A program made the translations under genes and the position numbers. Below the pieces are notes generated by a model. That model was not told the DNA's origin. It ran no database searches and worked only from the letters and a program-made list of their open reading frames with translations. Source: Calothrix sp. NIES-4105 (GTDB lineage: Bacteria; Cyanobacteriota; Cyanobacteriia; Cyanobacteriales; Nostocaceae). From it: a stretch of 64,000 bases of DNA. The stretch's first letter is position 1; each line of letters begins with the position of its first letter. The stretch spans positions 8,423,717 through 8,487,716 of the forward strand of contig NZ_AP018290.1 of the NCBI RefSeq assembly GCF_002368415.1, given 5' to 3'. Below, piece by piece: positions 34,978 through 63,131 of the stretch.

Positions 34978-35255
34978 CTTTTGATTCCCACGAAGGTGAT
35001 ATAAATATTGTGATCTACAAAGGCTTAATTTGTACCAAATTATATATCGTTTCAGCACACAAACCAAATTTTATGTGCTTTACCTGAATTTTCCTGAATT
35101 TCCCAGAATTACTGCAACTAAACCTAATTTTATACTCCTCAATTTAACTCAACAATTCAATTAAGCCTTCAAACATACTATTAATAGAAAGCAACATTAA
35201 AGCTTTCAAATGACAACAATTAAAACTAACAAATCACAAATTCAGGACTTTCATT

Positions 35256-35657
35256 ATGTCACTTTCTACTTCTAACGAACAACTATTTACCGAATTAACT
35301 GCTGAAGAAGCATCTGTACTTGAAGGAGGCGCCACTCTTATTTTATATAACGCAACTGCTATCAAAGCTGATGCAGACTTTGGGCCAAGTAACGGAGATG
35401 ACCTTTATATTAAAGTCAACGGTAGAAAAATCTTTGGAACTGCTGACGACGTAGATACAGGCGAAACCGTTAATATTGGCAAACGGATAAGCTTCAGTGG
35501 AACTGCAAAGGTTAATCTTTTTGACGGCGACCCCTGGCCTAACGACGACGACTCCTTGGGAGGTTTTACTGTAGGTAGCACTCCAACATACGGTACAAGA
35601 ACTGCGCGAGTCAGTGGTTCTGGCTCAACTTACGATATAACCTACAGTATCGTCTAA
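35256..35657 (+). CDS. Double-glycine-leader secreted protein, C2-like, substrate of the adjacent PCAT
   Basis: A 133-residue protein. Residues 1-25 form a leader, NEQLFTELTAEEASVLEGG, with the amphipathic LTAEEAxxLEGG pattern cut by C39 peptidases after the double glycine (Gly24-Gly25). The mature 108 residues are beta-rich and acidic: DDLYIKVNGRKIF, ISFSGTAKVNLFD and DPWPNDDDSLGGFTV. This layout (a strand with YIKVNG, later a D-x-D ... DDxLG turn) resembles calcium-binding C2-like beta-sandwiches seen in other bacterial secreted proteins, but the match is from memory. No cysteine is present, so it is not a lanthipeptide. An ABC-peptidase exporter and HlyD follow on the same strand. Confidence 0.82.
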   Translation: MSLSTSNEQLFTELTAEEASVLEGGATLILYNATAIKADADFGPSNGDDLYIKVNGRKIFGTADDVDTGETVNIGKRISFSGTAKVNLFDGDPWPNDDDSLGGFTVGSTPTYGTRTARVSGSGSTYDITYSIV

Positions 35658-35681
35658 AAAACCCGCTTGTTTCCCCCCTTA

Positions 35682-35810
35682 AAAAGCTACTGTGTACACA
35701 CAAGTTTCTAAAACTTACTTCTCTTCTCTTTCTTTGTGTCCTTTGTGACCTTTGTGGTTCATTAAAAGGAAAAACCACAAAGGCACAAAGGACACAAAGG
35801 GGGGTGAGGG
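35682..35810. repeat. Partial copy of the TGTGTACACACA inverted-repeat element
   Basis: It begins CTACTGTGTACACACAAG, the left end of the element at 43030-43194, and includes the same TTCTTTGTGTCCTTTGTG stretch. That stretch is followed by its inverted complement CACAAAGGACACAAAG (about 35784-35799), forming a long hairpin. The right terminal inverted repeat is missing, so the copy is truncated. It lies between the leader-peptide gene and its transporter. Confidence 0.7.
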
Positions 35811-35926
35811 TTTACAACCATAAAAGTAGTGTGAATAAAAAACACCCTTATTCCATTAAAGTCAACACCCTAGGGTTAGGGGGGATCATCATCGGACTTA
35901 TTGTTCCTTCTTCAGAATCAAAACAT

Positions 35927-35948
35927 ATCGGGGTTGCATTACCCCGAT
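35927..35948 (+). terminator. Hairpin between secreted substrate and transporter genes
   Basis: ATCGGGG and CCCCGAT form a perfect 7-bp stem with an 8-nt loop, ending 14 nt before the transporter ATG. It could attenuate read-through so that the substrate is made in excess of the transporter. It has no long U-tract, so an RNA-stability role is equally possible. Confidence 0.5.
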
Positions 35949-35962
35949 GTTTCTTATAAATT

Positions 35963-38164
35963 ATGAAATATCAGATTGTTCTTCAACATAGCGAGGAAGA
36001 CTGCGGCGCCGCTTGTCTTGCTACTATTGCCAAACACTACGGACGCACTTTTGCTATCAACCGCACGCGCTCTTGCGTTGGTACAGGTTCGCGAGGTACT
36101 AGCTTACTAGGTTTAAAACGGGGAGCAGAAGCACTAGGCTTTAATGCACGTCAAGTTAAAGCTAATCCTCAATTACTTGAACGACTTAATGAAATTCCTT
36201 TGCCTGCAACTATTCATTGGAAAGGCTATCACTGGGTTGTTTTATACGGTAAAAAGGGAAAAAAATACGTAATTGCCGACCCTGCTGTTGGTATACGTTA
36301 TCTTACCAGTCAGGAATTAATCGCTGGTTGGATGAATGGCGTAATGTTGCTATTGGAACCAGACGATAGCCGTTTTTACCAACAAGAGTCAGATAAAATT
36401 GGCGGTTTTGGGCGTTATATCCAACGAGTTTTACCTTATCGCTGGATTCTTGCCCAAGCGATTGCGATTAACTTATTTATTGGATTATTATCGCTTGCTT
36501 CTCCCTTTATGATGCAACTCTTAACTGATGATGTGCTGGTGCGGGGAGATACCCAATTGCTAACTACTGTGGCTATTGGGGTAATTGTAATGAATTTAGT
36601 TAGAAGTGCCATTGGTTTAGTACAGTCAAATTTAATTGGTCACTTTGCACAACGGTTGCAATTAGGACTAATTCTCGAATACGGTCGAAAACTGCTGCAT
36701 TTACCCCTCTCTTATTTTGAAGGGCGCCGTAGTGGAGAAGTAGTTAGTCGTATTTCTGATGTTCATGCTATCAATGCCTTAGTTTCGCAAATCGTCCTTG
36801 GTTTACCGAGCCAACTTTTTATTGCTTTGGTTTCCTTGGGTTTAATGCTGTTCTACAGTTGGGAACTTACTTGTGCTTCGATTCTTGCTTTTGTCATTGT
36901 CACTGGAATTAATTTGCTTTTCCTGCCAGCATTACGTAACAAAAGTCGTAATCTTTTAGTACTGGGTACAGAAAATCAAGGTTTTCTCGTTGAAACCTTT
37001 CGTGGCGTTCAGGTATTAAAAACTACACAAGCTACTCCTCAAGCTTGGGAAGAGTATCAAACAAATTACGGGCGCCTAGCAAATTTGGGCTGGAGTCGTA
37101 TGCAACTAGGATTGTATAGTGGTACTTTTACAGGTATTATTTCGACTTTGACTAATATTACCTTGCTTTGGCTGGGTAGTAGCTTAGTAATTAATCAGAC
37201 TTTGAGCATTGGGCAATTGCTAATGTTTAACGGTATGAGTGGTAACTTCCTCGGTTTTTTAAGTTCGGTAATTGGGTTAGCTGATGAATTTATTACTGCT
37301 CAAATAGTTGTCCAACGTTTGACGGAAGTTATAGACGCGACTCCAGAAGACGAAAATGATTTTAAAAAGCCTTGGGCACAAATTCCAGGCAATGCTGATA
37401 TTAGTTGTAATAATCTTAATTTTCATCATGCAGGTAGAGTTGACTTACTAGAAGATTTTTCTTTAACCATTCCTGGTGGTCAAGTAATTGCTTTAATTGG
37501 TAAATCGGGTTGTGGTAAAAGTACCCTTGCTAAATTGCTTGCAGGTTTATATGAGTGCCAATCAGGCAATATTCGATATGGCATTTATAATCAGCACGAC
37601 CTTTCCCTGGACTGTTTGCGCTCCTCAGTTGTATTAGTTCCTCAAGAACCGCACTTCTGGAGTCGCTCGATTGTTGATAATTTCCGCTTTAGCTATCCCA
37701 ATATTAGTTTTGAACAAATTGTTAAAGCTTGTCAAATAGCTGGTGCAGATGAATTTATTAGTAAGTTACCTGACAAATATCAAACTGTGTTAGGTGAATT
37801 TGGCACCAACCTTTCTGGTGGACAGCGACAAAGATTAGCCATTGCTAGAGCTATAGTCACCGACCCACCCATACTAATTTTGGATGAATCTACAGGCGCC
37901 CTTGACCCAGTTAGTGAAGCTGAAGTTTTGGATAAACTGCTGTATGAGCGTCAGGGTAAAACCACAATCATGATTAGTCACCGTCCCAAAGTTATCCAGC
38001 GCGCGGATTTAATTGTACTGCTAGAACTTGGGCGCCTGAAAATTCAAGGTAGTCCAGAACAATTACGTGAAATACCAGGTACACACTTAGACTTTTTAGA
38101 CGATTTTCTCCCCCCAACTCGCTATGCTTACTCAAATTCCACCCGATTTTTCAATCCCCGTTGA
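35963..38164 (+). CDS. Peptidase-containing ABC transporter (C39 peptidase, PCAT)
   Basis: A 733-residue exporter that cleaves double-glycine leaders and exports the cargo. The C39 peptidase domain (1-130) has catalytic Cys14 (EEDCGAAC), His90 (GYHWVVLYG) and Asp106 (IADPAVG). A six-helix transmembrane domain follows (about 155-440), then the nucleotide-binding domain with Walker A GKSGCGKST (513-521), signature LSGGQRQR (617 onward) and Walker B ILILDES. The 3' end overlaps the HlyD gene by 41 nt. The gene upstream encodes a protein with a matching leader, so substrate, exporter and adaptor are all in place. An outer-membrane TolC partner is not in the window. Confidence 0.95.
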   Translation: MKYQIVLQHSEEDCGAACLATIAKHYGRTFAINRTRSCVGTGSRGTSLLGLKRGAEALGFNARQVKANPQLLERLNEIPLPATIHWKGYHWVVLYGKKGKKYVIADPAVGIRYLTSQELIAGWMNGVMLLLEPDDSRFYQQESDKIGGFGRYIQRVLPYRWILAQAIAINLFIGLLSLASPFMMQLLTDDVLVRGDTQLLTTVAIGVIVMNLVRSAIGLVQSNLIGHFAQRLQLGLILEYGRKLLHLPLSYFEGRRSGEVVSRISDVHAINALVSQIVLGLPSQLFIALVSLGLMLFYSWELTCASILAFVIVTGINLLFLPALRNKSRNLLVLGTENQGFLVETFRGVQVLKTTQATPQAWEEYQTNYGRLANLGWSRMQLGLYSGTFTGIISTLTNITLLWLGSSLVINQTLSIGQLLMFNGMSGNFLGFLSSVIGLADEFITAQIVVQRLTEVIDATPEDENDFKKPWAQIPGNADISCNNLNFHHAGRVDLLEDFSLTIPGGQVIALIGKSGCGKSTLAKLLAGLYECQSGNIRYGIYNQHDLSLDCLRSSVVLVPQEPHFWSRSIVDNFRFSYPNISFEQIVKACQIAGADEFISKLPDKYQTVLGEFGTNLSGGQRQRLAIARAIVTDPPILILDESTGALDPVSEAEVLDKLLYERQGKTTIMISHRPKVIQRADLIVLLELGRLKIQGSPEQLREIPGTHLDFLDDFLPPTRYAYSNSTRFFNPR

Positions 38165-39632
38165 ACAAAATTTTCTACCCCCAATTAAACGCTGGACTCA
38201 GTTTGGTGGATTTTTTATCCTCTGCGTATTAGGACTAACTATTCCGATTGCTTATGCAGCCAAGTATAAAGTGACAGTCAAAGCACAAGCAACCATCCGT
38301 CCGGCTGGTGAATTACGAATCGTTCAGTCAGCGGTCGAGGGTCAAGTAATCAATATCTCCGTCCAAGAAAATCAAATAGTCAAAAAAGGAGATGTGCTTG
38401 CGACTATCGACGACTCGCGTCTGCAAACTAAAAAAAGTCAACTCCAAAGCAATATTCAGCAAAGCAAATTACAACTCGTCCAAATCAATGCCCAAATTAA
38501 TGCTATGGGTAGTCAAATTCGAGCCGAAACCGAGCGTATAAATGGTACTATTGCCTCAGCTGAAGCTGAATTAAGTGGTCGTACCCGTGAGCATAGAGAT
38601 AAAAATTTGACCACAGTTGCAGAAGTCCAAGAAGCTGAAGCCAATATAAGAATTGCCCAAGAAGAACTACACAAAGGCTACGCTGATTTAAAATCAGTAT
38701 ATTCAAACTTTTACGCGACTGAAGCTATCCTAGCAGCAGCGAGAACAAAGCGAAACAGATACGAAAGTGTAGCTAGAGAAGGAGCTATTTCCAAAAATCA
38801 GCTAGAAGAAACCCAGCTAGCAGTCTCTCAACAAGAACAAGCAGTAGAAGCACAAAAAGCATTGATTGAATCACAAAAACAAACAATTAAACGCCTTGAA
38901 CAAGCTGTTTTAGCTGCGCGCGCTAGAAAACAACGCGCGCAAGCTATCCTTAATCCTAGTAATGCAGAAGTAGGAATCGCGCAACAACGTATAGCCCAAG
39001 AAAAAGCAACTCTGAAAGCAAGCTTTGCAACACTAAGCAAGGAACGACAAGCTCTTGTAAAACAACAAATTGATATCCAAAAACAACTAGAACGCGATAG
39101 TCGCGAGTTAAACCAAATCGAAATCGACATCAAGCAAACAGTTATTGCGGCGCCATCCGACGGTACTATATTCAAGCTGGTTCTACGAAACTCCACCCAA
39201 ACTGTACGAGCAGGTGAAGAAATCGCCTATATTGCACCCAGCAACAGTAACCTAATTGTGAAAGCAGTCGTTGAATCTCAAGATGTAAGCAAAGTTAAAA
39301 TAGGTCAAAAAGTAAATTTACGAGTATCAGCCTGTCCTTATCCAGATTATGGAACTCTTTCTGGTAAAGTAAAAGCAATTTCTCCAGACGCAATTTCCCC
39401 CCAAAGTTATGGTAATACACCCAACGGCGCCACTGTTGCCGCAAGTCAAAAACCGGGTGCAGTCGGTACATTCTACGAGGTTACAATTGAACCGCAAAGC
39501 CTTCTTTTAGGCAAAGGTAAAAACAAATGTTCTATGCAATTGGGTATGGAAGGCAGAGCAGATATTATCTCAAGAGAAGACAATGTACTCCAATTCTTCC
39601 TAAGAAAAGCAAAACTAATAACAGATATTTAA
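38124..39632 (+). CDS. HlyD-family membrane fusion protein
   Basis: A 502-residue periplasmic adaptor that links the inner-membrane exporter to an outer-membrane channel. It has one N-terminal transmembrane helix (FFILCVLGLTIPIAYA), a split lipoyl/barrel-sandwich domain (AVEGQVINISVQENQIVKKGDVLATI and VIAAPSDGTIFKL), a long alpha-helical coiled-coil hairpin (about 100-330) and a C-terminal beta-barrel region (VGQKVNLRVSACPYPDYG-like). The ATG lies inside the transporter gene (41-nt overlap), showing tight coupling. The length is at the upper end for the family because of the long hairpin. Confidence 0.93.
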   Translation: MLTQIPPDFSIPVEQNFLPPIKRWTQFGGFFILCVLGLTIPIAYAAKYKVTVKAQATIRPAGELRIVQSAVEGQVINISVQENQIVKKGDVLATIDDSRLQTKKSQLQSNIQQSKLQLVQINAQINAMGSQIRAETERINGTIASAEAELSGRTREHRDKNLTTVAEVQEAEANIRIAQEELHKGYADLKSVYSNFYATEAILAAARTKRNRYESVAREGAISKNQLEETQLAVSQQEQAVEAQKALIESQKQTIKRLEQAVLAARARKQRAQAILNPSNAEVGIAQQRIAQEKATLKASFATLSKERQALVKQQIDIQKQLERDSRELNQIEIDIKQTVIAAPSDGTIFKLVLRNSTQTVRAGEEIAYIAPSNSNLIVKAVVESQDVSKVKIGQKVNLRVSACPYPDYGTLSGKVKAISPDAISPQSYGNTPNGATVAASQKPGAVGTFYEVTIEPQSLLLGKGKNKCSMQLGMEGRADIISREDNVLQFFLRKAKLITDI

Positions 39633-48915: not shown

Positions 48916-50550
48916 TTAATTGGCAGAAAGTTCTACACCGCTATTCATCAACATTAACTCAAGTTGAGAAATTCTACGATTTAAGGCGCCGATAACATCT
49001 TGAGGGTCAGAAGACTTTTGCAACCACCACTTATTTCTTGCTGTTTTTAGTGACAGGTTGCGTTCTTGTACAAATTTATGAACAGCAGTTGCAACACCAA
49101 TGTGGTTGAGGTCAGTATAGTCATCCCCAATCATTATCCCATCAGGTTTGAGTAATTCCCAGTACTGTATAATATCAGCATAAACATCATCCGCTTCATG
49201 GCTAGCATCGATGTAAATCAAATCAGCTTTGAAATCTTTTTGTTTTAGTAATCGAGCAGCAATATTACTAGGAACTGGCAATGGCACAATCGAATCATGT
49301 AAGTTTTTGTACATGACATTTGCTAAAAATTGATAGAACAGTGTTGGATAACCGTGCTTTCGGGATAAACCAAGCGCATAATCTCCCGATAAATGCTCGA
49401 TAGCTCCTAGCCATGTATCAATACAGATAATCGTGCCGTCAATGTTTTTATTCTGTAACAAAGAAGCCATGTGAACAGCAGAACCACCCTTCCAAGTACC
49501 GACTTCGATAATAGTTTTGGGCTTGATTTGGTCGATTAGCTGTTCAAACAATGGGTCGTTACTACCCCAACCTTGTAAATCTAACGGATAATCGCGGTAA
49601 TTGAAGTGAGTGTAGGGATTCTCTAAACCGAGATTGTCGGCAATTTCCTGAGTTGACTTTTTGAATCTAGCAGCTTTGCCGTTCTGTTCAAGATTAGCTT
49701 CCGAGATTTCTACAGCTAATTGTGTTTGATTATATGAACCTTCTTGGGCAGTTATAGATGTAGGCAGATTGTCCGCTTGAATCCTCGGTTCTTTCTGCCA
49801 AGGAAAACCTTCAGGATATTTGGTCTGCATTACAGTATTACCTTGGTGGAAGAACTCAGGCTTTACAGCAAACTGACCTAATCCCGCGCGGTAATTAACT
49901 GTGTAGGCGCCATTCGTATCACAGCGAGGATACGCTTTCACTAATTCATTACACAGCATTACATCTGTAGATTTAAGAATAGGCGCGCCTGGTTTTTTAA
50001 CATCGTTAGGTTTACTAAATCTAACGTAAAACAGGTGAGCATATTCAAGGGCAATGCATTTTTTGAGAAAGTAGCAGTTGGTATCAATTACATGACAGCT
50101 GTCCGCAAAGTCTTGCCATTTACCCAAGCTTTCACAGTTGTCATGGGTTGCCAAAGTACCATCGAGGTTAACTATTTTCCTTAAGGCATAAGCCCAATCT
50201 AAATGCTTTTCTTCGACAACTTGAACTAGAGAAGTAATATGATTTGAGTCAAACCAATTATCTTCATCTAGAAACGCTAGGTAATCCCCATTAGCTAGAA
50301 AAAGAGACATGCCATAAATACGGTGTCCATTAAACCCACCTTTACCTGTAGCATATGGTAAACAAATCACATGAGTTTGAGGTTTCTTAAACTCTATTTC
50401 TTGCAAAAGAGCTTGGGCAGCAGCTTCCCGTTCTTTTCCATCAATAACAATTATGTGTTCAATATTTGGATAATCCTGGTCTTGAACACTTTGAATTGCC
50501 TGCTTCATCAAAGGATTACCTGTTACAGGAGTGATCACAGAAACTAGCAT
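48916..50550 (-). CDS. Glycosyltransferase family 2 - methyltransferase fusion
   Basis: A 544-residue two-domain protein. Residues 1-240 are a GT-A glycosyltransferase (SVITPVTGNPLMKQAIQSVQDQ, LAFLDEDNWF as the DxD-type metal site). Residues about 330-500 are a class I methyltransferase related to cephalosporin-hydroxylase-like CmcI domains (KTIIEVGTWKGGSAVHMASLL, DLIYIDASHEADDVYADI, IMIGDDYTD). It may add and methylate a sugar on a surface glycan or protein. Its start lies 7 nt after the stop of the upstream TPR/O-GlcNAc-transferase-like gene, so they form an operon and probably modify the same target. Confidence 0.88.
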   Translation of the reverse strand: MLVSVITPVTGNPLMKQAIQSVQDQDYPNIEHIIVIDGKEREAAAQALLQEIEFKKPQTHVICLPYATGKGGFNGHRIYGMSLFLANGDYLAFLDEDNWFDSNHITSLVQVVEEKHLDWAYALRKIVNLDGTLATHDNCESLGKWQDFADSCHVIDTNCYFLKKCIALEYAHLFYVRFSKPNDVKKPGAPILKSTDVMLCNELVKAYPRCDTNGAYTVNYRAGLGQFAVKPEFFHQGNTVMQTKYPEGFPWQKEPRIQADNLPTSITAQEGSYNQTQLAVEISEANLEQNGKAARFKKSTQEIADNLGLENPYTHFNYRDYPLDLQGWGSNDPLFEQLIDQIKPKTIIEVGTWKGGSAVHMASLLQNKNIDGTIICIDTWLGAIEHLSGDYALGLSRKHGYPTLFYQFLANVMYKNLHDSIVPLPVPSNIAARLLKQKDFKADLIYIDASHEADDVYADIIQYWELLKPDGIMIGDDYTDLNHIGVATAVHKFVQERNLSLKTARNKWWLQKSSDPQDVIGALNRRISQLELMLMNSGVELSAN

Positions 50551-50557
50551 GATATAA

Positions 50558-53254
50558 TTACCTCCAAGTGCGGATAGTTTGGCGACAGTCGTAAGCAGTG
50601 ATAGCCATTTGGAAAAAACGAGCTATTTCTGAAATGGCAGATTTATTTTCATATAGCACAGAGTTACGTGCTTGAATTTCTTGCTGAATGTGGCGCCGCC
50701 ATTCTGGGTCATGTGCAATACGATAGGCTACTTCAACATAGGATTGAGCGTCCCAAACAACGCAATCGAGCAAGCCCATTTGTTGGTAAAATCCATAAGT
50801 AAGTCGGCTACGCAAAAATTCTCCAGGCAAGGTAACAATTGGTAATCCAGTTGCAAAAGCTTCCAACGAAGTGTTACCACCCCCAAAGTGAATCGGGTCA
50901 AGCATTACATCCCCTAGCATTAGTAGCTGGAGATATTCTTCATAACTAAGGTGCCGTAAAAAATGAATTTGATCTACAACATCAGGAATAGTTTTAGTCC
51001 AGCGTTGTTGCAGTAACTCATCCCAATAACTAGACGCTCCTTGGATCAGCACAAGCCATCCTTTTTGATCGCGTCGTAACAAATCTCCAATAATTTGGTC
51101 AAACTCTGGGTGGAACTTGAATGAGCTTTGAGGACATAGGTAGAGTGTACCAACTCCGGGCAAATTAAAGGTTTCGCGACTAGCAGGAGCAGGTAAAGTT
51201 GGTCGGGTGTAATAAATACCTGGTTGTTTGAGTCGAATTAAACGCTCGCTATAGTGTTCCTGAGCATTCTCTTGATCAAAAACTGTTGCAGACAGGAAGT
51301 AATCCATATTGGGAATGCCGGTAGTATCTGGATGTCCCCAAGTCATGCACTGAACTGGCGCCAATCGTGCAAAAGCGAGGAAGTAAGACAAGGGCGCCAT
51401 ACCAATGTCAGTATAGAATAGTATGTCTAGTTCCTGTTCGGCAATCTGCTCACGAGCTTTAACTAAATCGCCTTCTAATATAATTATACTATCTGCATAG
51501 CTATCAATTTTTACACTTCTAGCATCTTTAGATTTAGCCAGACGCAGCAACACTATTTCAAACAAGTCATGAGGTAATTGACCCAGAATTTCCCCGTAGA
51601 GTTTACCCATTGTGTGTTCCCGTAAAAATTGGGAACAAACTCCTATCCGTATGCGTTGCCGAGGTTTACGATTACCGCGACAGTGAGGAGCAACCCAGTC
51701 CAAACCAGAGCAATTATTCAGGTAAAAGCGAGCAATTGCTTCTTGTAGTTGGCGGTCATTGCGACCATGATAAGTTAGGTAAAAGTTTGCAGTAGAAGCA
51801 ACTCCAACTGGTTGCGTCAGCTTAACTCCTTCAGCATCTAACGCTTGCAGTTCTTGGAGTAAACGATTACGTTCTAAATCAATTTCCTTGCAGTTCGTCA
51901 AAATCACAGGCAAGGATAGTCCTCGTCGAACCCGAAAATTAGGGTCGCGAAGCTTAGAAGATCCTTGTTGCAAAATATCTCTGCCTTCTGCAACTCGCCC
52001 TTGAACGATAAGAGTTCCGCCTAATTCATAATAGTTTTCAGGATTTTCTGGGTCTAACTCTAGAGCCACTCGCAGACTCTCAGCCGCTTTATCTACTTTG
52101 CTGATACGATTATAAAGCGCACCTTGTATATTATGTAGAACAGCAGATTTTGGATATTGCTCTAGACCTCGTTGACACCAAGAAAGACCTTCCTCTAACC
52201 GAGATTGTTGAGAAAACAAATAGCACAACGAATTCCAGGCATCTTGGTCTTTCAATCCTGAATTCAGGGCGTTTTGATAGCTTGTAATCGCTTCGCTATA
52301 ACGAAGCGTTAGCATAAAAATATCAGCCAAATTTTTATGAGCAAGGGCGTAATTAGGACGCAAATTAATTGCTTGCTGAAAGTAATTAATAGCCTCTTGC
52401 CATCTTTGCTGACGTTTACAAATAATTCCCAGGTTGTTAAGAGCTTCAGGAAACTTTGGTTGTAAACGCAAGGCTGTTTCTAGACACTTTGTTGCCTCTT
52501 GAAGTTCGTTTTGCCGTGTTAATATTAATCCTAAATTGCGGTATGCATCCGCATAATTAGGGTTAAGCTCAATCGCACGACGATAATAGGCGCCTGCTTC
52601 CTCAAAATTTCCTTGGTCTTTGTAAACAGTACCCAGGTGGTTATAAGCAATTGGTTCTTGTGGTGCAAACTCAATTGCTTGTTTTAAACTTTCAGCTGCC
52701 TCTTCTAACTGTCCCTTTGCTTTTAAAGCTAAACCTAAATGATTGAGAGCATCGATATAATCAGGCTTTAATTTCAAAGCTTGCCTAAGTAATATAATCG
52801 CTTCATCTAGTTCTTCAAGAGAAGTCAGTACCAAACCCAAATTATTCAGAGCTTCGAGATAATAAGGGTTCAGGGTTAAAGCTTGCCGAAAACTACTTAC
52901 TGCTTCATCTAATTTGCCCTGCTCTTTAAGCAAAAATCCTAAATTATTATGAATTTCTGGAAGGTTTGGTTGCAACCGCACAGCATGACGATAACAGATA
53001 ATAGCTTCGTCTAACCGTCCTTGGAGAGAAAGTAAAACTCCTAAGTTACTATAAGCTTCCGCATATTCTGGATTTAGCTCTAAAGCTTGCTGAAATGCAG
53101 GTACAGCTTCTTGAATTTGACTGCTCAACGCCAAAGCTGTTCCTAAGTGGAAGTAATATTCTGGTGTGTTCGGGTTTTCAGTAATTTCCTGCTGAAAATA
53201 AGTAACAGCCTCTGAGTAATGCCCTTGGGACAGTAAAGCAATACCTTCACTCAT
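50558..53254 (-). CDS. TPR - O-GlcNAc transferase-like (SPINDLY-type) protein
   Basis: An 898-residue protein. Residues 1-450 hold about 12 TPR units (AIELNPNYADAYRNLGLILT and similar), the peptide-binding superhelix. The C-terminal half is a GT41 glycosyltransferase: RIRIGVCSQFLREHTMGKL, APVQCMTWGHPDTTGIPNMDYF, and the nucleotide-sugar region GDVMLDPIHFGGGNTSLEAFATGLPIVTLPGEFLRSR. In eukaryotes such enzymes add O-GlcNAc or O-fucose to Ser/Thr; in cyanobacteria substrates are largely unknown. It is the first gene of a two-gene operon with a glycosyltransferase-methyltransferase. The nearest candidates for acceptors, by position, are the small secreted proteins at 53680-54707, transcribed divergently. 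Confidence 0.93.
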   Translation of the reverse strand: MSEGIALLSQGHYSEAVTYFQQEITENPNTPEYYFHLGTALALSSQIQEAVPAFQQALELNPEYAEAYSNLGVLLSLQGRLDEAIICYRHAVRLQPNLPEIHNNLGFLLKEQGKLDEAVSSFRQALTLNPYYLEALNNLGLVLTSLEELDEAIILLRQALKLKPDYIDALNHLGLALKAKGQLEEAAESLKQAIEFAPQEPIAYNHLGTVYKDQGNFEEAGAYYRRAIELNPNYADAYRNLGLILTRQNELQEATKCLETALRLQPKFPEALNNLGIICKRQQRWQEAINYFQQAINLRPNYALAHKNLADIFMLTLRYSEAITSYQNALNSGLKDQDAWNSLCYLFSQQSRLEEGLSWCQRGLEQYPKSAVLHNIQGALYNRISKVDKAAESLRVALELDPENPENYYELGGTLIVQGRVAEGRDILQQGSSKLRDPNFRVRRGLSLPVILTNCKEIDLERNRLLQELQALDAEGVKLTQPVGVASTANFYLTYHGRNDRQLQEAIARFYLNNCSGLDWVAPHCRGNRKPRQRIRIGVCSQFLREHTMGKLYGEILGQLPHDLFEIVLLRLAKSKDARSVKIDSYADSIIILEGDLVKAREQIAEQELDILFYTDIGMAPLSYFLAFARLAPVQCMTWGHPDTTGIPNMDYFLSATVFDQENAQEHYSERLIRLKQPGIYYTRPTLPAPASRETFNLPGVGTLYLCPQSSFKFHPEFDQIIGDLLRRDQKGWLVLIQGASSYWDELLQQRWTKTIPDVVDQIHFLRHLSYEEYLQLLMLGDVMLDPIHFGGGNTSLEAFATGLPIVTLPGEFLRSRLTYGFYQQMGLLDCVVWDAQSYVEVAYRIAHDPEWRRHIQQEIQARNSVLYENKSAISEIARFFQMAITAYDCRQTIRTWR

Positions 53255-53679: not shown

Positions 53680-54105
53680 ATGAATAACAACGTAAAGAAA
53701 GCCCTTTTACTTACAACCGCTTCTTTAGGTCTTCTTAGTGTTTCAGTAGCAACAGCAGATGTAGCTTCAGCAGGCTATGCATCTGGTAGTGCTTCTGTTA
53801 CCAACATTGACGGCAGCACTTACAGCGTGGGTGGTGAATTCGGTGGACCAGGAGTAAATTACAACTCCGTTACTGTTGAACCAACTTATAACGCTGTAGA
53901 CTCAGCCAATATCTCTAGCTATGCAGTCAACAATCTTGTTGTGACAGGTTCTACAACTGTAAATGCTGCGGACACTATGACCATTAGTGAACAAGTAGTA
54001 GAAACATTGAATAATTTGGCGCCTAATGGTGCTATCACCACCGCTAACCTCAGCAATTACGTTGGAATCATCCGCGCGGCTGGTGGCGCTGACGGTTTGG
54101 AATAA
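53680..54105 (+). CDS. Small secreted protein with IIRAAGGADGLE C-terminal tail
   Basis: A 141-residue protein with a clear signal peptide (KKALLLTTASLGLLSVSVATADVASA, cleavage near residue 31). The mature part is beta-rich, poor in charge and rich in Ser, Thr, Val, Asn and Gly (SVTVEPTYNAVDSANISSYAV). A helical segment SEQVVETLNNL and the final tail YVGIIRAAGGADGLE lead directly to the stop. The next gene's product ends in nearly the same tail. I do not recognise the family; the low-complexity beta composition is like that of secreted fibre subunits. An AAGGA precedes the ATG. A hairpin follows the gene at 54132-54178. Confidence 0.8.
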   Translation: MNNNVKKALLLTTASLGLLSVSVATADVASAGYASGSASVTNIDGSTYSVGGEFGGPGVNYNSVTVEPTYNAVDSANISSYAVNNLVVTGSTTVNAADTMTISEQVVETLNNLAPNGAITTANLSNYVGIIRAAGGADGLE

Positions 54106-54131
54106 GTTTGACTAATTCAAACATTTGATTA

Positions 54132-54178
54132 TTAAGATAAAGGTTTAGATAGATAACTATTCTAACCTTTATCTTTAA
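54132..54178 (+). terminator. Long hairpin between the two IIRAAGG-tail genes
   Basis: TTAAGATAAAGGTTTAGATAG and its inverse CTATTCTAACCTTTATCTTTAA form a stem of about 20 bp with one bulge and a short loop. It could be a terminator or an mRNA-stability stem giving unequal amounts of the two secreted proteins. Confidence 0.7.
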
Positions 54179-54245
54179 TGTGCTTGAAAAAGTGACTAAT
54201 CAAATAATTGTTATTTTTCTAGCTTTATTCTTGAGAGGTTGACAA

Positions 54246-54707
54246 ATGAAAAAATATCTTATTGGTCTTACATTCGGATGTGCAATTTGCCTAGAACCGA
54301 CACTAGCTTTTGGCCAGACTACTAATAATATTACTAATCAGACTACTAATGTTAATAATCCATCAGTTGTTTATCCTGTATCAGGTGCTTCTATTTCAGG
54401 AGCAGTAACGTATCAATCCGCAGCTAATGTAATTACAACCATTTCAGGGCAGATAACACTTCCTCAAAATTTATATTACAATGGTTCCGCCACTATCACA
54501 TATCAAACTACTAGTCCCACTGATTTGCGTCCCACAAGCTTAACATTAACCCCTGAAGCTAACTCAATTCAAGTCGTTGACACTTCTAGCTCTATATCTG
54601 CTGTAACTGCTACAGAATTGAAAAATGCATTAAATCCTACTACTGGTAATCTACAAAGAGCAATTACAATTATCCGTGCGGCAGGTGGCACCGATGGACT
54701 CGAATAA
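54246..54707 (+). CDS. Small secreted protein with IIRAAGGTDGLE C-terminal tail
   Basis: A 153-residue protein with a signal peptide (YLIGLTFGCAICLEPTLAFGQ, cleavage near residue 24) and an Asn/Thr-rich start (TTNNITNQTTNVNNPS). The body is made of beta strands (GASISGAVTYQSA, ITLPQNLYYNGSATITYQT) with no cysteine after the signal. It ends NLQRAITIIRAAGGTDGLE at the stop. The tail differs from that of the upstream gene's product at one of its last 12 residues, whereas the bodies share little beyond composition, so the tail is under its own constraint. Family unknown to me. A hairpin with a GGCGCC loop follows. Confidence 0.8.
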   Translation: MKKYLIGLTFGCAICLEPTLAFGQTTNNITNQTTNVNNPSVVYPVSGASISGAVTYQSAANVITTISGQITLPQNLYYNGSATITYQTTSPTDLRPTSLTLTPEANSIQVVDTSSSISAVTATELKNALNPTTGNLQRAITIIRAAGGTDGLE

Positions 54708-54758
54708 GTGCTAATGTATAAATTAGTTGAGCGGTTGCTACGAAAGTTAGACTAAGAA

Positions 54759-54797
54759 CTACCCTTTTAATTTTGGCGCCGAAATTAAAAGTAGTAG
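54759..54797 (+). terminator. Hairpin with GGCGCC in the loop
   Basis: CTACCCTTTTAATTTT and GAAATTAAAAGTAGTAG pair around a GGCGCC loop, about 50 nt after the second secreted gene, and probably terminate its transcript. The remainder of the 54708-55159 gap is AT-rich with no gene and probably contains the promoter of the following large gene. Confidence 0.65.
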
Positions 54798-55183
54798 TCA
54801 TACATATCAGTATAAAAATGTTGTATTGTTGAATTTGAATTGTATGTGTAGTTCAACTATACGGTAACGTTTCAGATTATGAGCTTATACACAAACTAAA
54901 GCATATTTTAGTTCAGTAATATTAAACAGATTAAGGGTTAAGCAATATCAGCATAAGTTCCAAATGTACATACTTTTATAATATTATTAACCCAAAAATC
55001 TAAGTTTTATAAAGATATGTAAAAACTATTTATAAAGTAAATGTTCAATTTTTTTAGATTGAGGTTCAGTAATTGCGTTGTCTAAACTGTTGAGGATGCT
55101 GGTTTGCGTGCAAGCATTACTCAGCCGACAAATTAGTTAAAGCTTTATACGTAGACTTTTTGAGTTCCTGGAGATGTCAAAAA

Positions 55184-58100
55184 TTGCAATTAGTTATCAC
55201 CAAAAAATTAAGCAAAGGGCAGTATATTAATCAAGTCTTGCAAATAGTCTGCATCCAAATAATACTTGCAACATTCTGCAAATTGCCTGCTCTATCCCAA
55301 ACTCCTTTAAAATCCACGCCATTACAATCACAAGAACTTAACTCAAATAACCAACCAGAAGATATTGAATTAGATACAGCAAACTCCGAGCTAGCACCAC
55401 AACCTAGATTAACTTTATCTAAGGTTCACTTTGCTTCGATATCACGAAAAGATGAGCATAGTTTTAGCGTTCAATCAGGAAGTATTAACGTAGTTACATC
55501 AAACTCTAATTTAAATTTACCAAATGCAGAATTAACTTTATCCGAAGTAAAATTTGCTTCGATATCACAACAAGGTGAGCATAACTTTAATGTTCAACTA
55601 GAAAGTAGTGATATAGTTACATCAACCTCGAATTTAAATTCGCCAAATGCGGAATTAACTTTATCCGAAGTAAAATTCGCTTCGATGTCGCAACAAGGCG
55701 AGCATAACTTTAATATTCAACTAGAAAGTAGTGATATAGTTACATCAACCTCGAATTTAAATTCGCCAAATGCGGAATTAACTTTATCCGAAGTAAAATT
55801 TGCTTCGATGTCGCAACAAGGCGAGCATACGAAAAACTTAACTCCCCAGCAGAGTGCCCTATTAGAGAAGGGAGACTCCACTCCCTCCTCGCCTCTCCTT
55901 GTAGGAGAGGGGCTAGGGGAGAGGTTTTTAACATCTCATGAAAAGTCAGAACTAGCAAGTAGTGATGTAGTTACATTAACTCCAGAATTACTTTTATCTC
56001 AAGTTTCTTCTCCTTCAGTAACACCACAGGGGGGACTCAATCCAAGTATCCAATCAGGAGGTGTTGACCCTTTACAACTGGCGCCTGACTCCTCACTAGA
56101 TTCATCTGCACGTGATCTGAATCTATCTCAACAATATCCCTTACCTACAACACCATCACAACCGGGAACACCTAATCAAAACGTTCAACCAGGAGGTGTT
56201 GACCCGTTACAAACTGCTCCAGATTCTCGCGTAGACCAATTTAACCCAAATCGACCCCTCGAAAAACTTGAGGGAAATGCCGAATTAACCGAAGTCCTTG
56301 TTCGTAATGCAATAATTAATACTGCTGGTCGCTATCCTTGGGTTATTGACCCAACAGATAAGTTAACTTTTTCGGCTTTGCTGTTTCGTCCAGGTGAGAA
56401 AGAAGTATATTCTAGTTTCGATTTTCAATCAATTGATGGAGGTTCTGGGGTTAATCGCTTCTCAGTGGGCGTTTTTCCTAAAAAAGATAGCTTTTACTGG
56501 ATATTAGATGATAATCAAGTAGTGATGGAAACAAAAGGGGAGTTATACGGTGTTTCTTATCAAGGAGAATCAAAAGAAACTCACATAACCCGAACAATGG
56601 ATTTGGTTCAGAGCTATGGGGGTAATCAATTCATCGCTGCTCTGGCGCCGGATATGGAGCGTTTGTTGCGTAACCCTGATTCTAATACCAGTGATGCTTC
56701 TAATGCTAGTGTATTAAGTGTTGCGGCTCAGGTCACCAATCCTTCGGGCATACAAGCACCCCAAATTATCATCAATAATCCAGCAATTAGCAATAATAGT
56801 GGTAATATAACCAATATTCAATTCCCTAGCCAAAGTAATTTCTTTAACAATATAGATATTGCAAATGCACCTAGAGTGTTGCAAGCGTATCCCACGCTAA
56901 ATATACAATCACTAGCTTCTCTTGGCTTTTATCGTGGAGAAATTATTCCCACTGAAGTGTTAAAAGAAGCTGGTATTACTTTTGGTAGTATTTACAAAAA
57001 TGCTCCTCCACAGTTTACTCCGACCGTTAGTAGCACCGCTGGTATTAAAGTGTTACAGTCTGGCAAGTTTGACAACCCCGATCTACTTCGGATGTTACTT
57101 GACCGCTCTTTAAGTGATGGTGAGAGAAAAACACACTATTTTAACTCGCTTTATTGGACTTCGTTTGGTATCCGTGGTGAAAACCAAACCGAAACAATTA
57201 ATAAATCTGAAAGCTACAAATGGTATCGATTCTACGCGAGTCAAGCGCATAATCGGGTTTTGATACGGTACCATAAAGACAAACCTGAAGCGACATATAC
57301 CCAAGTCTTCGCAAACCCAGGAATTTCACTTACGTTTCGTCCAGACACATTTGATGTAGATGCACCGCAAACCATAATTAACTCAGTAGGGTTACTAACA
57401 GGTTTGATATTTGACCAAATAAATCCTGAAAATATAAACAAATTATTACAAACCGCTCGCGAACGCTATAACAAGAAGCAAACCTTCTCTGCCTTACAAA
57501 CTAAAGCTACTACTGATGAGCGTCGTCAAATAAATCGGCGCCTTAATAGTACCTTAGCTTTTACCAATCTTGCCAGTGGAGTCGAGCAACTATCTGGACA
57601 AGTAACATTTTCTAGTAGCGTCAAACCGAATCAAAGTTCGCTGTGGCAAGTACGAAGCGGGTTATACCGTCGTTCGGTTCTGTTTTTTGAGTCGCAGTCA
57701 GATGTCACCTCTGGACCAATTTCATTTGGAGAAACACGTTTTTCACCAGAGCGATTAGGACCCTTGGGTTTTGCTAATAGTTTTGTACCAGAAAACAGAG
57801 TGGATAATCAAAACCAGTCGAATGAATCTTTCGCTGTACAAACATTAGTAACTACAGGTTCGGGTAGACAGTTCCTTTTCCAAGACTCCTCTAATAGCTT
57901 ATTAGGAGTGCCGGTACCAGCAAGAGCAACTGCTTTGGTATTTGATCGATTTGAATTACGTCGCTCTGAAACACAGAAAATTAAAAATTATATTTTTTCT
58001 GGTTATAAATTTCTACCTGCAACAGAATTAGTTTTTTCTGGAACTAATAAAAATTTAAATTATAGTGTTAGTGTTGGAACGTGGATAAATCCAAATGCCG

Positions 58101-58678
58101 ACCAACTTCTAAATGTTTCAGATAACCAATCTGTTTTTAAAGAGCCTACAGTGGGAGTATATACAAACGCAAGCGTCACCAGTACTAACCTCAAAATTAC
58201 GCGCGATGCTAAAGGCAATCCTTCAGAAATTTTTAATTTTAGCCCCTCACTCACTTTACGTTTAAATAGTGCTTCCAGCGTTCTTAATCAAAATGTAGTA
58301 GCGCTAAGTTCGCTATTCTATTATCAAAATAGAAGTTTTGAGTTCGCAGTTGCTCCTGGAATTCAATATGCCAATCAACTTATCGGTGTCCTACCAGCTA
58401 GTCTGCGCTTTAGAAATGGACTCAGTTTTGAAACTGCTTTAGAACTAGGAGAACGTCTATATTATCGTTTTGAAACTTTAAAGACTTTAAATAGGGATTT
58501 AAGCTTAGGGTTATACGTGCGGAATTTTACAGATATCGACAGAAACCGTATTAACGGACATAGTTATGGTCTTAAAGTTCGTTTCAATGTTCCCAAAACC
58601 GTTTTATTCACTGATTTTACAGTCGGAAACAGTAGCCAAGGTTTAGATATTCGCTTGCAAGGAAGCATAAATTTCTAA
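55184..58678 (+). CDS. Large exported protein with 41-residue repeats and probable outer-membrane beta-barrel
   Basis: The start is uncertain: TTG 55184 has a GGAG 10 nt upstream and is followed by a signal peptide (QVLQIVCIQIILATFCKLPALSQ); the frame is open from TTG 55160. The mature protein has about three and a half copies of a 41-residue repeat (AELTLSEVKFASMSQQGEHNF), then a Pro/Gly-rich linker with two GGVDPLQ units, and a folded central domain from about residue 370. The C-terminal about 350 residues are amphipathic strands ending in phenylalanine (LDIRLQGSINF), as in outer-membrane barrels. I do not recognise the family. A surface transporter or assembly platform for the two small secreted proteins upstream is possible. 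Confidence 0.78.
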   Translation: MQLVITKKLSKGQYINQVLQIVCIQIILATFCKLPALSQTPLKSTPLQSQELNSNNQPEDIELDTANSELAPQPRLTLSKVHFASISRKDEHSFSVQSGSINVVTSNSNLNLPNAELTLSEVKFASISQQGEHNFNVQLESSDIVTSTSNLNSPNAELTLSEVKFASMSQQGEHNFNIQLESSDIVTSTSNLNSPNAELTLSEVKFASMSQQGEHTKNLTPQQSALLEKGDSTPSSPLLVGEGLGERFLTSHEKSELASSDVVTLTPELLLSQVSSPSVTPQGGLNPSIQSGGVDPLQLAPDSSLDSSARDLNLSQQYPLPTTPSQPGTPNQNVQPGGVDPLQTAPDSRVDQFNPNRPLEKLEGNAELTEVLVRNAIINTAGRYPWVIDPTDKLTFSALLFRPGEKEVYSSFDFQSIDGGSGVNRFSVGVFPKKDSFYWILDDNQVVMETKGELYGVSYQGESKETHITRTMDLVQSYGGNQFIAALAPDMERLLRNPDSNTSDASNASVLSVAAQVTNPSGIQAPQIIINNPAISNNSGNITNIQFPSQSNFFNNIDIANAPRVLQAYPTLNIQSLASLGFYRGEIIPTEVLKEAGITFGSIYKNAPPQFTPTVSSTAGIKVLQSGKFDNPDLLRMLLDRSLSDGERKTHYFNSLYWTSFGIRGENQTETINKSESYKWYRFYASQAHNRVLIRYHKDKPEATYTQVFANPGISLTFRPDTFDVDAPQTIINSVGLLTGLIFDQINPENINKLLQTARERYNKKQTFSALQTKATTDERRQINRRLNSTLAFTNLASGVEQLSGQVTFSSSVKPNQSSLWQVRSGLYRRSVLFFESQSDVTSGPISFGETRFSPERLGPLGFANSFVPENRVDNQNQSNESFAVQTLVTTGSGRQFLFQDSSNSLLGVPVPARATALVFDRFELRRSETQKIKNYIFSGYKFLPATELVFSGTNKNLNYSVSVGTWINPNADQLLNVSDNQSVFKEPTVGVYTNASVTSTNLKITRDAKGNPSEIFNFSPSLTLRLNSASSVLNQNVVALSSLFYYQNRSFEFAVAPGIQYANQLIGVLPASLRFRNGLSFETALELGERLYYRFETLKTLNRDLSLGLYVRNFTDIDRNRINGHSYGLKVRFNVPKTVLFTDFTVGNSSQGLDIRLQGSINF
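55405..55840 (+). repeat. In-frame 123-bp tandem repeat within the large exported protein
   Basis: The period is exactly 123 bp (55405, 55528, 55651, 55774); the last two copies are almost identical at the DNA level while the first is degenerate. The unit encodes 41 residues with no frame change. Recent unequal exchange is likely, and copy number may vary between strains. Confidence 0.9.
55892..55910. repeat. Intact CCTCTC-CTTGTAG-GAGAGG hairpin inside a coding region
   Basis: It is the same hairpin that is split by the 144-bp element at 7122-7265. Here it lies in frame within the large exported protein gene, encoding PLLVGEGLGERF in the linker, so repeat DNA has been adopted as protein sequence. 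The surrounding 55840-55945 is all repeat-like. Confidence 0.85.
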
Positions 58679-59945: not shown

Positions 59946-61508
59946 TTAAAAGATAAAGTCGGTAGCATCAACATTGGTGGCAGTGAAGTTGCCTAGCGTA
60001 ATGGTATCTGTACCGAATACCGCACCGGAAATCACAGTGTTGGCGCCATTTTGAGTCACCGTCAAAGCACCGAAGCTGGTTGCAAATGCCGTCAAGTTAA
60101 TTTTGTCTGCACTGTCTGCGAAAGCATTAATGCGATCGCTACCAAAACCTGATGCAAAAATAAAGGTGTCATTGCCGGCGCCACCATTCATAGTATCGTT
60201 CCCGGCGCCACCAATTAAAGTATCATTACCACCTGCCCCAGTCAGATTATCAGCACCAGCACCACCGACTAGGGTATCAGCACCAGCACCACCATTGAGG
60301 TTATCATTACCAGCACCACCATCGAGATAATCATTACCAGCATCACCAGTCAGGGTGTCATTACCAGCATTACCAAAGATATTATCGTTTCCGGTTGTGC
60401 CGTTGAGGGTGTTGTCTAAATCATCTCCAACAATTAGACCAATCGCATCAACAGCGCTCGCACCTGTAAGGTCAGCACCGAAAAAGTTAGCATTGGTGAA
60501 ATTGCCTTTGGACAGGTTCGCGTTAGTTAAATTGGCATTTGTGAAATTTGCACCAGTGGCGATTGCGTCAGTGGTGAGTACTCCACTCAGGTTAGCTCCC
60601 GTGAAGTTGGCGTTTGTCAAGTCACCTGTTGTAAAATCAGCGTTAGTCAAATTGGCATTGGTGAAATTTGCACCAACCGCAGACCCGTTAATAAAGACAC
60701 CTTCTGCATTGGCTTGGGTAAAGTTTGCTCCACTTACATCAGTCTGATCAAATCTGGTTCCAGTCAGGTTGGTAACTGTACTACCAGAGGCGCTAAAATC
60801 AGAACCAGAAAGAACTGCATCATCGATCAGCGCACCACTTAAATTTGCACCACGAAAACTAACATTAGCAGTTTGACCCGGAGCAAGGGGAGCATCACTC
60901 AAAGAAAGACCGCTCAAATTAGCGAGGTCAAAAATAGAGTTTTGCAGAGTGACATCTGTGAAATTTGTTTGCCGGAAGTCTGCACCTGTGGCATTGACAT
61001 TGACTAAGAGAGTGGCCTCCAGAGTAGCTCCTTGGAGGTCGGCATTTGTAAGATTGGCGCCTGTAAAGTCAGCAGCTTTCAAATTCGCCAAAGACAAGTC
61101 CGCACGGGTAAAGTTAGCACCAGTAAGGTTAGGACGCTCAGATTGTTCGCCACTCAGATTAGCTTCCTGCAAATTTGCATCCGTTAAGTTGGCATTTGAA
61201 AGGTTGATGTTGGTTGTGTTGACTTGAGACAAATTTGCTTGTCTCAAGTTGGCGCCACTCAGGTTAACATCCTGTAATGTTGCTAAAGAAAAATTAGTTG
61301 GTGTGGGAAAGTTTGCATTAGGGGCAAAAATGGCATTTGATGCATTTACGTTGCTCAGAAAAGCTTCTGAAAAGTTAGTGCTTCTTAAAAGCGTGCCAAC
61401 TAATTGGACATCTGTAAGACTGGCTTTGAAAAAAGTTGAGCCATTCAGGTTTTGACCGTTAAAATTATTGCCAACCAGAACTTGATTGCTAAAATCTTGA
61501 GCTGCCAT
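59946..61508 (-). CDS. Pentapeptide-repeat / RTX calcium-binding protein (copy 1)
   Basis: A 520-residue secreted-type protein without a signal peptide. Residues about 10-350 are A(N/D)Lxx pentapeptide repeats (NLTGANFTRADLS and similar), forming a square beta-helix. Residues about 365-460 are RTX calcium-binding nonapeptides (GGAGNDTLIGGAGNDT). The C-terminal cap FASGFGSDRINAFADSADKINL ... DFIF is typical of type I secretion substrates. A near-identical architecture is encoded by the neighbouring gene at 61554-63131, sharing both ends at high identity, so they arose by tandem duplication. The upstream isomerase may assist folding during export. Confidence 0.92.
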   Translation of the reverse strand: MAAQDFSNQVLVGNNFNGQNLNGSTFFKASLTDVQLVGTLLRSTNFSEAFLSNVNASNAIFAPNANFPTPTNFSLATLQDVNLSGANLRQANLSQVNTTNINLSNANLTDANLQEANLSGEQSERPNLTGANFTRADLSLANLKAADFTGANLTNADLQGATLEATLLVNVNATGADFRQTNFTDVTLQNSIFDLANLSGLSLSDAPLAPGQTANVSFRGANLSGALIDDAVLSGSDFSASGSTVTNLTGTRFDQTDVSGANFTQANAEGVFINGSAVGANFTNANLTNADFTTGDLTNANFTGANLSGVLTTDAIATGANFTNANLTNANLSKGNFTNANFFGADLTGASAVDAIGLIVGDDLDNTLNGTTGNDNIFGNAGNDTLTGDAGNDYLDGGAGNDNLNGGAGADTLVGGAGADNLTGAGGNDTLIGGAGNDTMNGGAGNDTFIFASGFGSDRINAFADSADKINLTAFATSFGALTVTQNGANTVISGAVFGTDTITLGNFTATNVDATDFIF

Positions 61509-61553
61509 AGTATATATCCTGAGAAAATCTAAATTGCTTTGAAGTTTGAAAAT

Positions 61554-63131
61554 TTAAAAGATAAAGTCGCTAGCATCAACATTTGTAGCGGTGAAATTTG
61601 CTAGGGTAATAGTATTTGTACCGAACAGCGAACTGGAAATCACTGTGTTGGCGCCATTTTGAGCCACCGTCAAAGCACTGAAACTGGTCGCAAATGCCGT
61701 CAAGTCAATTTTGTCTGCACTGTCTGCGAAAGCATTAATGCGATCGCTTCCAAAACCTGATGCAAAAATAAAGGTGTCATTGCCGGTGCCTCCGTTCATG
61801 ATATCGTTACCAGCGCCACCAGTTAGGATATCAACACCACCACCACCATTAAGATTATCGGCGCCTGCACCGCCAATCAAGGTATCATTGCCGATTTCAC
61901 CAGTTAGGGTGTCATTACCGTTACCACCGTTCAGATAGTCAGCACCATCATTGCCATTCAGGTTATCGGCGCCTGCACCACCGTCTAAATAATCATTACC
62001 ACCAGCACCAGTGAGAGTGTCATTACCATCAAAGCCGAAGATATTATCTTTGCTACTTGTGCCGTTGATTGTATCATTACCAGAAGTCCCAAGCGTCAGA
62101 CCAATGGCATCAACAGCGCTCGCACCTGTGAGATTTGCTCCGATAAAAGTTGCATCCGTGAAATTACCTTTCGACAGGTTTGCGTTAGTTAAATTGGCAT
62201 TTGTAAAATTTGCACCAGTAGCAATTGCATCGGTGGTAAGCACCCCGCTCATGTCAGCTCCTGTAAAGTTGGCATTGCTAAGGTTGGTTTTAGATAGGTC
62301 AGTGTTTACCAGTGTGGCACTACTAAAATTTGAACCACTAAAATCACTGTCAACTAATTTAGCTCCAGTCAAGTTTGTGGCTGTAACTGTACCATTGGTG
62401 GCAACATAGGCACTAAAATCAGCCCCAGTCAACACTGCATCATCTAAAATTAAGTTGCTTAAATCAGCACCACGAAAGCTAACGTTAACAGGTTGTGTTG
62501 GGTCAAACGCGGCTGTATCACTTATAGAAACGCCACTGAAATTAGCCAGGTCAAAGGTAGAATTTTGCAGAGTTAAATCTGTGAGTTTTGCTAATCGGAA
62601 ATCAGCACCTGTTGCATTAACATTGACTAAAAGAGTTGCCTCAAAGTCAGTTTCTTCAAACTTAGCATTTGTGAAATTTGCACCTGTCAAATCGGCAGCT
62701 TTCAACTTTGCCTTAAATAAATCGGCGCCTGTAAAATTTGCCCCTGCTAGATTTGGTCGGTCAGATTGTTCACCACTGAGATTAGCTTCATGCAAGATAG
62801 CATTGGTAAGATTGGCATTTGACAAGTTAATGAATTTTGTATCGATTAATGATAGATTAGCTTGTCTGAGGTTTGCCCCACTCAGATTAACATTCTCTAA
62901 TGTTGCCTTGAATAAATTAGCTGGTGATGGAAAGTTGGTATTAGGAGCAAAAATTGCATTAGATGCATTAACATTAAACCACTTAGATTCTTCAAAATTA
63001 GTACTTCTTAGCCCTGTACCAACAAATTGGACATCTGTAAGAGTTGCTTTGAAAAAATTTGAGCCATTAAGGTTTTGACCGTTGAAATTGTTTCCAACTA
63101 GAAATTGATTGCTAAAATCTTGAGCTGCCAT
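61554..63131 (-). CDS. Pentapeptide-repeat / RTX calcium-binding protein (copy 2)
   Basis: A 525-residue paralogue of the gene downstream, with the same order: pentapeptide beta-helix (about 10-350), RTX repeats (about 365-465; NGNDGADYLNGGNGNDTL) and C-terminal cap ending ATNVDASDFIF. The first 25 residues and the last 60 are almost the same in both copies, while the middle pentapeptide part has diverged, suggesting that the ends are constrained for export. It lies 45 nt upstream of copy 1 and 42 nt downstream of the isomerase gene, so the three are probably one operon. No type I transporter is in the window. Confidence 0.92.
   Translation of the reverse strand: MAAQDFSNQFLVGNNFNGQNLNGSNFFKATLTDVQFVGTGLRSTNFEESKWFNVNASNAIFAPNTNFPSPANLFKATLENVNLSGANLRQANLSLIDTKFINLSNANLTNAILHEANLSGEQSDRPNLAGANFTGADLFKAKLKAADLTGANFTNAKFEETDFEATLLVNVNATGADFRLAKLTDLTLQNSTFDLANFSGVSISDTAAFDPTQPVNVSFRGADLSNLILDDAVLTGADFSAYVATNGTVTATNLTGAKLVDSDFSGSNFSSATLVNTDLSKTNLSNANFTGADMSGVLTTDAIATGANFTNANLTNANLSKGNFTDATFIGANLTGASAVDAIGLTLGTSGNDTINGTSSKDNIFGFDGNDTLTGAGGNDYLDGGAGADNLNGNDGADYLNGGNGNDTLTGEIGNDTLIGGAGADNLNGGGGVDILTGGAGNDIMNGGTGNDTFIFASGFGSDRINAFADSADKIDLTAFATSFSALTVAQNGANTVISSSLFGTNTITLANFTATNVDASDFIF

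Follow-up and report, generated by a model that had tools for sequence, protein, structure and literature searches.

Cyanobacterial surface proteins and the routes they take through the outer membrane are poorly known, and chaperone-usher genes of the CccS/CccP type exist in these bacteria. Among described systems, HMW1A/HMW1B/HMW1C unite a secreted protein, a barrel and an enzyme of glycosyltransferase family GT41 (PMC3983070), type-B proteins of the type IX secretion system (T9SS) are reported to combine a C-terminal signal with a cognate barrel (PMC9143113), and the chaperones of chaperone-usher systems are described as gripping the C-terminal carboxylate of their subunits (PMC4654587, PMC4390875). 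Here, we describe a module of two gene families in a stretch of 64,000 nucleotides from Calothrix sp. NIES-4105 (the window; NCBI RefSeq assembly GCF_002368415.1, contig NZ_AP018290.1, positions 8,423,717 to 8,487,716), comprising small Sec-type proteins with a shared C-terminal tail and a large exported protein predicted to form an outer-membrane beta-barrel. Its parallels with HMW, T9SS type-B and chaperone-usher systems appear to lie in the way it may work, not in membership. The host genome measures 12.04 Mb, and the relatives found for the module are all cyanobacterial.

The module occupies the forward strand. Open reading frames (ORFs) and protein searches, together with alignments for the first and a structure model for the second, define gene A (53680..54105, 141 amino acids) and gene B (54246..54707, 153 amino acids). 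Both proteins have Sec-type N-termini, as judged by eye, and both end in IIRAAGG[A/T]DGLE directly before the stop codon, the tail regions being IIRAAGGADGLE-stop for A (54067..54105) and IIRAAGGTDGLE-stop for B (54669..54707). Comparison of the 12 tail codons revealed 5 identical codons, 6 silent differences and 1 replacing difference; since the differences are mostly silent, it is selection at the protein level that preserves the tail. The original prediction, made from the DNA alone, had pointed to this near-identity, which is confirmed at the protein level, and to hairpins behind both genes, which were found at 54126..54185 (z -5.5) and 54748..54806 (z -4.1). Judged from their sequences, A and B belong, as distant relatives, to a single small family. 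The third gene runs from a TTG start at 55184 (alternative TTG at 55160) to 58678. In agreement with the barrel-like C-terminus first proposed for its product, residues 365-1164 are predicted from the ORF, profile and fold model to be an outer-membrane beta-barrel. None of the three window proteins reached a Pfam cut-off, and none matched NCBIfam.

The barrel and the small family form one cyanobacterial module, which is real and widespread but patchy. In a survey of 388 genomes of the class (160 genera), the barrel was present in 35 genomes (21 genera), one per genome, and was split into two pieces in G244 and G306. The small family was matched in 37 genomes at E<=0.01 and in 32 at E<=1e-8, a cut set after viewing the match list; the five weaker matches (G051, G018, G195, G169 and G084; best E 1e-4) were taken as noise. 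Far from never occurring together, the outcome that would have spoken against the original prediction, the two families share most of their genomes: the barrel is present in 31 of the 32 genomes with the small family (Fisher p 2.6e-40, shared ancestry ignored), and the small family at the same cut in 31 of the 35 with the barrel. The sole small-family genome without a barrel, G288, is an assembly in 1060 contigs. Barrel and small gene lie on one contig, at most 12 kb apart, in 29 of the 31 genomes, and on different contigs in G226. Four barrel genomes lack a strong small-family match; they include G212, which has diverged members, G271, which has the second family ending in Leu-Asp (LD) described below (locus L122), and G345, where the contig ends beside the barrel.

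The same picture emerged from 45 loci, namely 44 related loci and the window. BLAST clustering joined the small proteins of 31 loci into one family, exceeded only by the barrel family; the clusters that follow in size, with 18 and 12 loci, were response-regulator-like and TPR-like proteins, likely joined through common domains, and this clustering found no third gene generally conserved beside the module. At six more loci (L037, L041, L043, L044, L045 and L046), the partner is a diverged member or belongs to the second family, and at four (L023, L026, L038 and L053, the last two from one genome) a member lies elsewhere in the genome. No partner was found at L019, L035, L042 and L047, of which L035 belongs to the same genome as L045, and L042 and L047 are situated where contigs end. 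Genera with the module include Nostoc, Fischerella, Pseudanabaena, Microcystis and Dolichospermum, and thus mat-, soil- and bloom-forming cyanobacteria; one Fischerella carrier is strain PCC 9431 (L049). By sequence comparison, both families are new to Pfam and NCBIfam.

The tail is conserved throughout the small family. Protein searches with A returned nine proteins and those with B five, the window's own counted, and R-A-A-x-G-x-x-G-L-E is kept in all 14. In an alignment of 52 members, the last three positions are G (44 rows) or A (8), L (51) or M (1), and E (28), D (20), F (2), N (1) or L (1). The profile of this alignment, run over the fetched loci, yielded 79 distinct small proteins, 70 of which end in [LM][DE], versus 13 of 891 in the background, which consists of the remaining ORFs in the same loci with 100 amino acids or more (some of the 13 belong to the second LD family). 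We also scanned 21432 frames, each closed by a stop and 30 or more codons long, from 1.45 Mb of partly overlapping loci and the window, for A[AG]xGxxGL[DE]-stop. The expression matched 101 frames (42 distinct), all of them family members, in loci drawn around the module and hence not as a proteome-wide test. Six matches unflagged by the earlier profile proved to be plain family members that fell outside that run or had no start within the locus. Carriers of the tail are small and look secreted, and they often lie in tandem and beside homologues of the 55184-58678 barrel; its occurrence in unrelated cytosolic proteins was not seen in these frames.

Multi-domain versions of the small protein separate the tail from the rest of the fold. 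L114 (9577-11211), L115 (3660-5261) and L116 (8440-10029) each encode one four-domain protein of 529-544 amino acids, and L119 (6992-8359) has three more, each with two or three domains. Counted by reading, GLE closes all six true C-termini, versus GL[DE] at none of the 13 internal domain ends, where the helix end (e.g. IIRAGAG, SLVRAF) is still recognisable; in L119, the true ends keep GLE although the preceding stretch has diverged. In proteins of several domains with one terminal GLE, nature offers a useful test of the tag. Next to diverged barrels in Microcystis, Dolichospermum, Sphaerospermopsis and Aphanizomenon lies a second family, which also looks secreted and abounds in Ile-Pro repeats. 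It has no clear kinship with the first (best E 0.044, filters off), and five of its six distinct members end in [VTA]LD, the Chrysosporum member at L045 ending in IISP. On these sequence patterns, the tag likely behaves like a C-terminal address signal.

We give about even chances to the reading that A, B and the 55184-58678 gene are one conserved module, in which the barrel probably reads the free tag at the C-terminus of these small Sec-type proteins and would deliver them to, or keep them on, the cell surface. The small proteins, predicted to be exported by Sec, would fold in the periplasm or further out, exposing a free Leu-Asp/Glu end; the barrel would bind the tag, Gly/Ala-Leu-Asp/Glu-COOH, and then pass the proteins outward or tether them. 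They may assemble into a surface coat or fibre, as suggested by the repeated domains and tandem genes, and a GT41 enzyme may glycosylate them before export. More tentatively, we envisage an own-type cyanobacterial secretion and surface-assembly system, in which a single dedicated barrel would read a Leu-Asp/Glu carboxylate tag common to otherwise unrelated Sec-exported proteins, export them and build a GT41-glycosylated coat or fibre. If true, a tag of two or three C-terminal residues and one barrel would constitute a very small secretion code, which would provide a handle for protein display on cyanobacteria and assign a specific bacterial substrate to a GT41 enzyme. The sorting signal and platform of the original prediction are supported in part, and it is transport, assembly and fibre formation that we infer.

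Several observations weigh against this reading. In G115, an assembly of five contigs, the two genes lie about 4 Mb apart; G238 has a barrel with no partner seen, and the small family was matched nowhere in the genomes that carry L019, L042 and L047. Nine of the 79 small proteins lack a terminal [LM][DE]. GLF or GLL tails occur in L016, L017, L027 and L033 and a GLN tail in L032, the end is disturbed in L050, and residues follow GLE/D in three proteins (G115, G197 and G270), which suggests that a free end may not be strictly needed. A fourth extended tail, in G197, ends in FLD and is counted among the 70, and a fifth GLF protein, from the HT-58-2 genome, stands outside the 79. On a tree of 61 barrels, tail types, labelled by hand, require 16 changes versus 32.1 after shuffling, and GLF/GLL tails are confined to one clade (support 99); such tracking of barrel clades speaks for the reading in that it suits co-evolution, but plain inheritance may account for it as well. 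Finally, most loci are without a GT41 neighbour.

Variant tails can also be listed by barrel. GLF or GLL replaces GL[DE] in L016, L017, L027, L033 and L136, the barrels of which form one clade. Extensions beyond GLE/D belong to one barrel clade (L129 7623-8117, L130 6837-7813 and L127 3780-4229) and end in PLP, PFD, FLD and WWD.

The HMW two-partner system, as described, resembles the module in having a secreted protein, a dedicated outer-membrane barrel and a GT41 enzyme nearby, the last in three lineages of the module. In the window, the divergent neighbour at 50558..53254 (reverse strand) matches PF13844 (E 9.7e-19) and TPR models, that is, a GT41 catalytic profile with TPRs, and is related in sequence to SPINDLY and O-GlcNAc transferases; these profile and sequence searches make it a possible accessory enzyme. 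A GT41 stretch adjoins the module in the same divergent layout in L117 and L133 and is found beside it in L041, L043 and L044, while in L037 and L046/L122 the GT41 gene, the LD protein and the barrel are consecutive on one strand; in G212, a GT41 frame terminates right at the border of the sequence retrieved. No match came from the other loci examined. Because the Calothrix genome itself has only three GT41 genes, adjacency by chance in three lineages is unlikely, as judged without a formal test over all lineages. There are also differences from HMW. The substrates of the module are small, neither they nor the barrel match a Pfam family, the candidate signal is C-terminal whereas HMW has an N-terminal TPS domain, and the GT41 enzyme carries TPRs, which HMW1C lacks. 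In Pfam and NCBIfam searches, a POTRA/TpsB-type profile matched none of 49 aligned barrels and an N-terminal TPS domain none of the 52 aligned small proteins. A further difference is that glycosylation sequons are hardly enriched in the small proteins.

A C-terminal signal with a cognate barrel encoded nearby is the T9SS type-B arrangement as presented in PMC9143113, and it suggests that the barrel could be an anchor only. The small proteins would then traverse the outer membrane in a different way, and the tag would dock into the barrel, as proposed for type-B proteins with a C-terminal domain (CTD) and PorP-like barrels. We consider this unlikely, though worth reckoning with: the loci share no further conserved outer-membrane component, but a general route encoded elsewhere could serve. 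The module also differs from T9SS in that its signal consists of a few residues, not a domain, and its hosts are cyanobacteria; the CTD sorting-domain profile matched none of the 52 small proteins in Pfam or NCBIfam.

The structure model of the barrel bears on a second alternative. Residues 365-1164, modelled with 48 relatives (mean pLDDT 85.6, pTM 0.71), are rich in long strands; model residues 363-433 are helical, and the C-terminal strand has Phe as its last residue. From this model, the 55184-58678 protein is predicted to be a large outer-membrane beta-barrel. K622 and R830 are invariant. Foldseek and VIA-align found that the model resembles many solved barrels, none closely; pores and receptors are the closest, and ushers are among the matches at similar or lower scores. 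With sequence profiles, all but two of the 49 barrels were blank in Pfam and NCBIfam at E<=0.01, the exceptions being chance-level matches to a Pfam domain of unknown function and to an NCBIfam beta-helix model. Against PDB, the barrel profile gave nothing credible; the one chain matched, at E 0.04, covered 22 positions. The likeness to pores and receptors, and the general presence of one barrel gene per genome, would fit small proteins that remain periplasmic and serve a barrel pore as ligand-binding or plug subunits. This appears improbable to us: TonB plug, TonB-receptor or porin profiles matched none of the 49 barrels, and the tandem and multi-domain copies, like the second unrelated family, suit surface material better. 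Apart from this, the N-terminal linker of the barrel protein is lengthened at 55408-55829 by a 123-bp unit repeated 3.4 times in tandem (89% matches), and at 55829-55951 it contains, in frame, a dispersed DNA repeat of about 60-120 bp, present with 71-94% identity at roughly 40 genomic places.

The model of B comprises six strands and two helices and has an irregular tail; IIRAAG forms a helix end and the last six residues are without regular structure, at lower confidence; the body of the small proteins is thus predicted to be a small beta-sheet closed by two helices. The small family has no credible match in Pfam, NCBIfam or PDB. Taken together, the model and the comparison of internal with true domain ends suggest that the tail combines a fold-related helix with a free Gly/Ala-Leu-Asp/Glu-COOH. 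That IIRAGAG-like residues recur at internal domain ends does indicate that this half is fold-related, and one could suppose that the whole tail is part of the fold, with another cause for the co-occurrence. We hold this to be very unlikely, given that GL[DE] is restricted to true ends and that an unrelated neighbouring family likewise ends in LD.

Chaperone-usher systems, as described, share with the module Sec-exported, beta-rich small proteins and an outer-membrane barrel, and donor-strand complementation by the tail, in a chaperone-usher-like fibre, was among the roles originally proposed. Whereas the multi-domain ends and tail statistics favour an address signal, this role now looks highly improbable. 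The tail is modelled as a helix end with irregular residues, no third gene is generally conserved, and the module differs in showing no usher, PapD-like chaperone or spore-coat-U profile match in its aligned members. The usher profile matched none of the 49 aligned barrels (Pfam and NCBIfam, E<=0.01; sequence profiles only) and pilin or spore-coat-U profiles none of the 52 aligned small proteins, and the 45-locus clustering, with neighbours not Pfam-scanned singly, found no conserved cluster of chaperone-like neighbours. Exported precursors of peptide pheromones can have short conserved C-termini, but a C-terminal peptide cleaved off and secreted as a signal sensed through the barrel is scarcely credible here, as the body is conserved too, the multi-domain forms have a single terminal copy of the tag, and the locus shows no conserved sensor gene. 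The EbfG proteins of Synechococcus elongatus, as described, are also small secreted cyanobacterial proteins that occur in sets and are linked to surface or matrix; they carry a double-glycine secretion motif, whereas the module proteins have Sec-type N-termini and a C-terminal tag.

Further genes of the window surround the module. Next to the GT41 gene, 48916..50550 (reverse strand) encodes, by profile search, a GT2 glycosyltransferase and methyltransferase-domain protein; its relatives adjoin the GT41 gene in L133 and in L117, where only the start is present at the locus edge. At 35256-39632, a small protein with a double-glycine-like leader is followed by a peptidase-type ABC transporter and an HlyD-like gene; judged by eye, the three make up a peptide secretion cluster. 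Consecutive CHAT-type, filamentous-haemagglutinin-like and CHASE2-type proteins were recognised by eye at 26326-35067, and genes resembling this set, also by eye, are neighbours of the small gene at L125 and L128. Finally, two similar tandem proteins with pentapeptide-like and RTX-like repeats are encoded on the reverse strand at 59946-63131.

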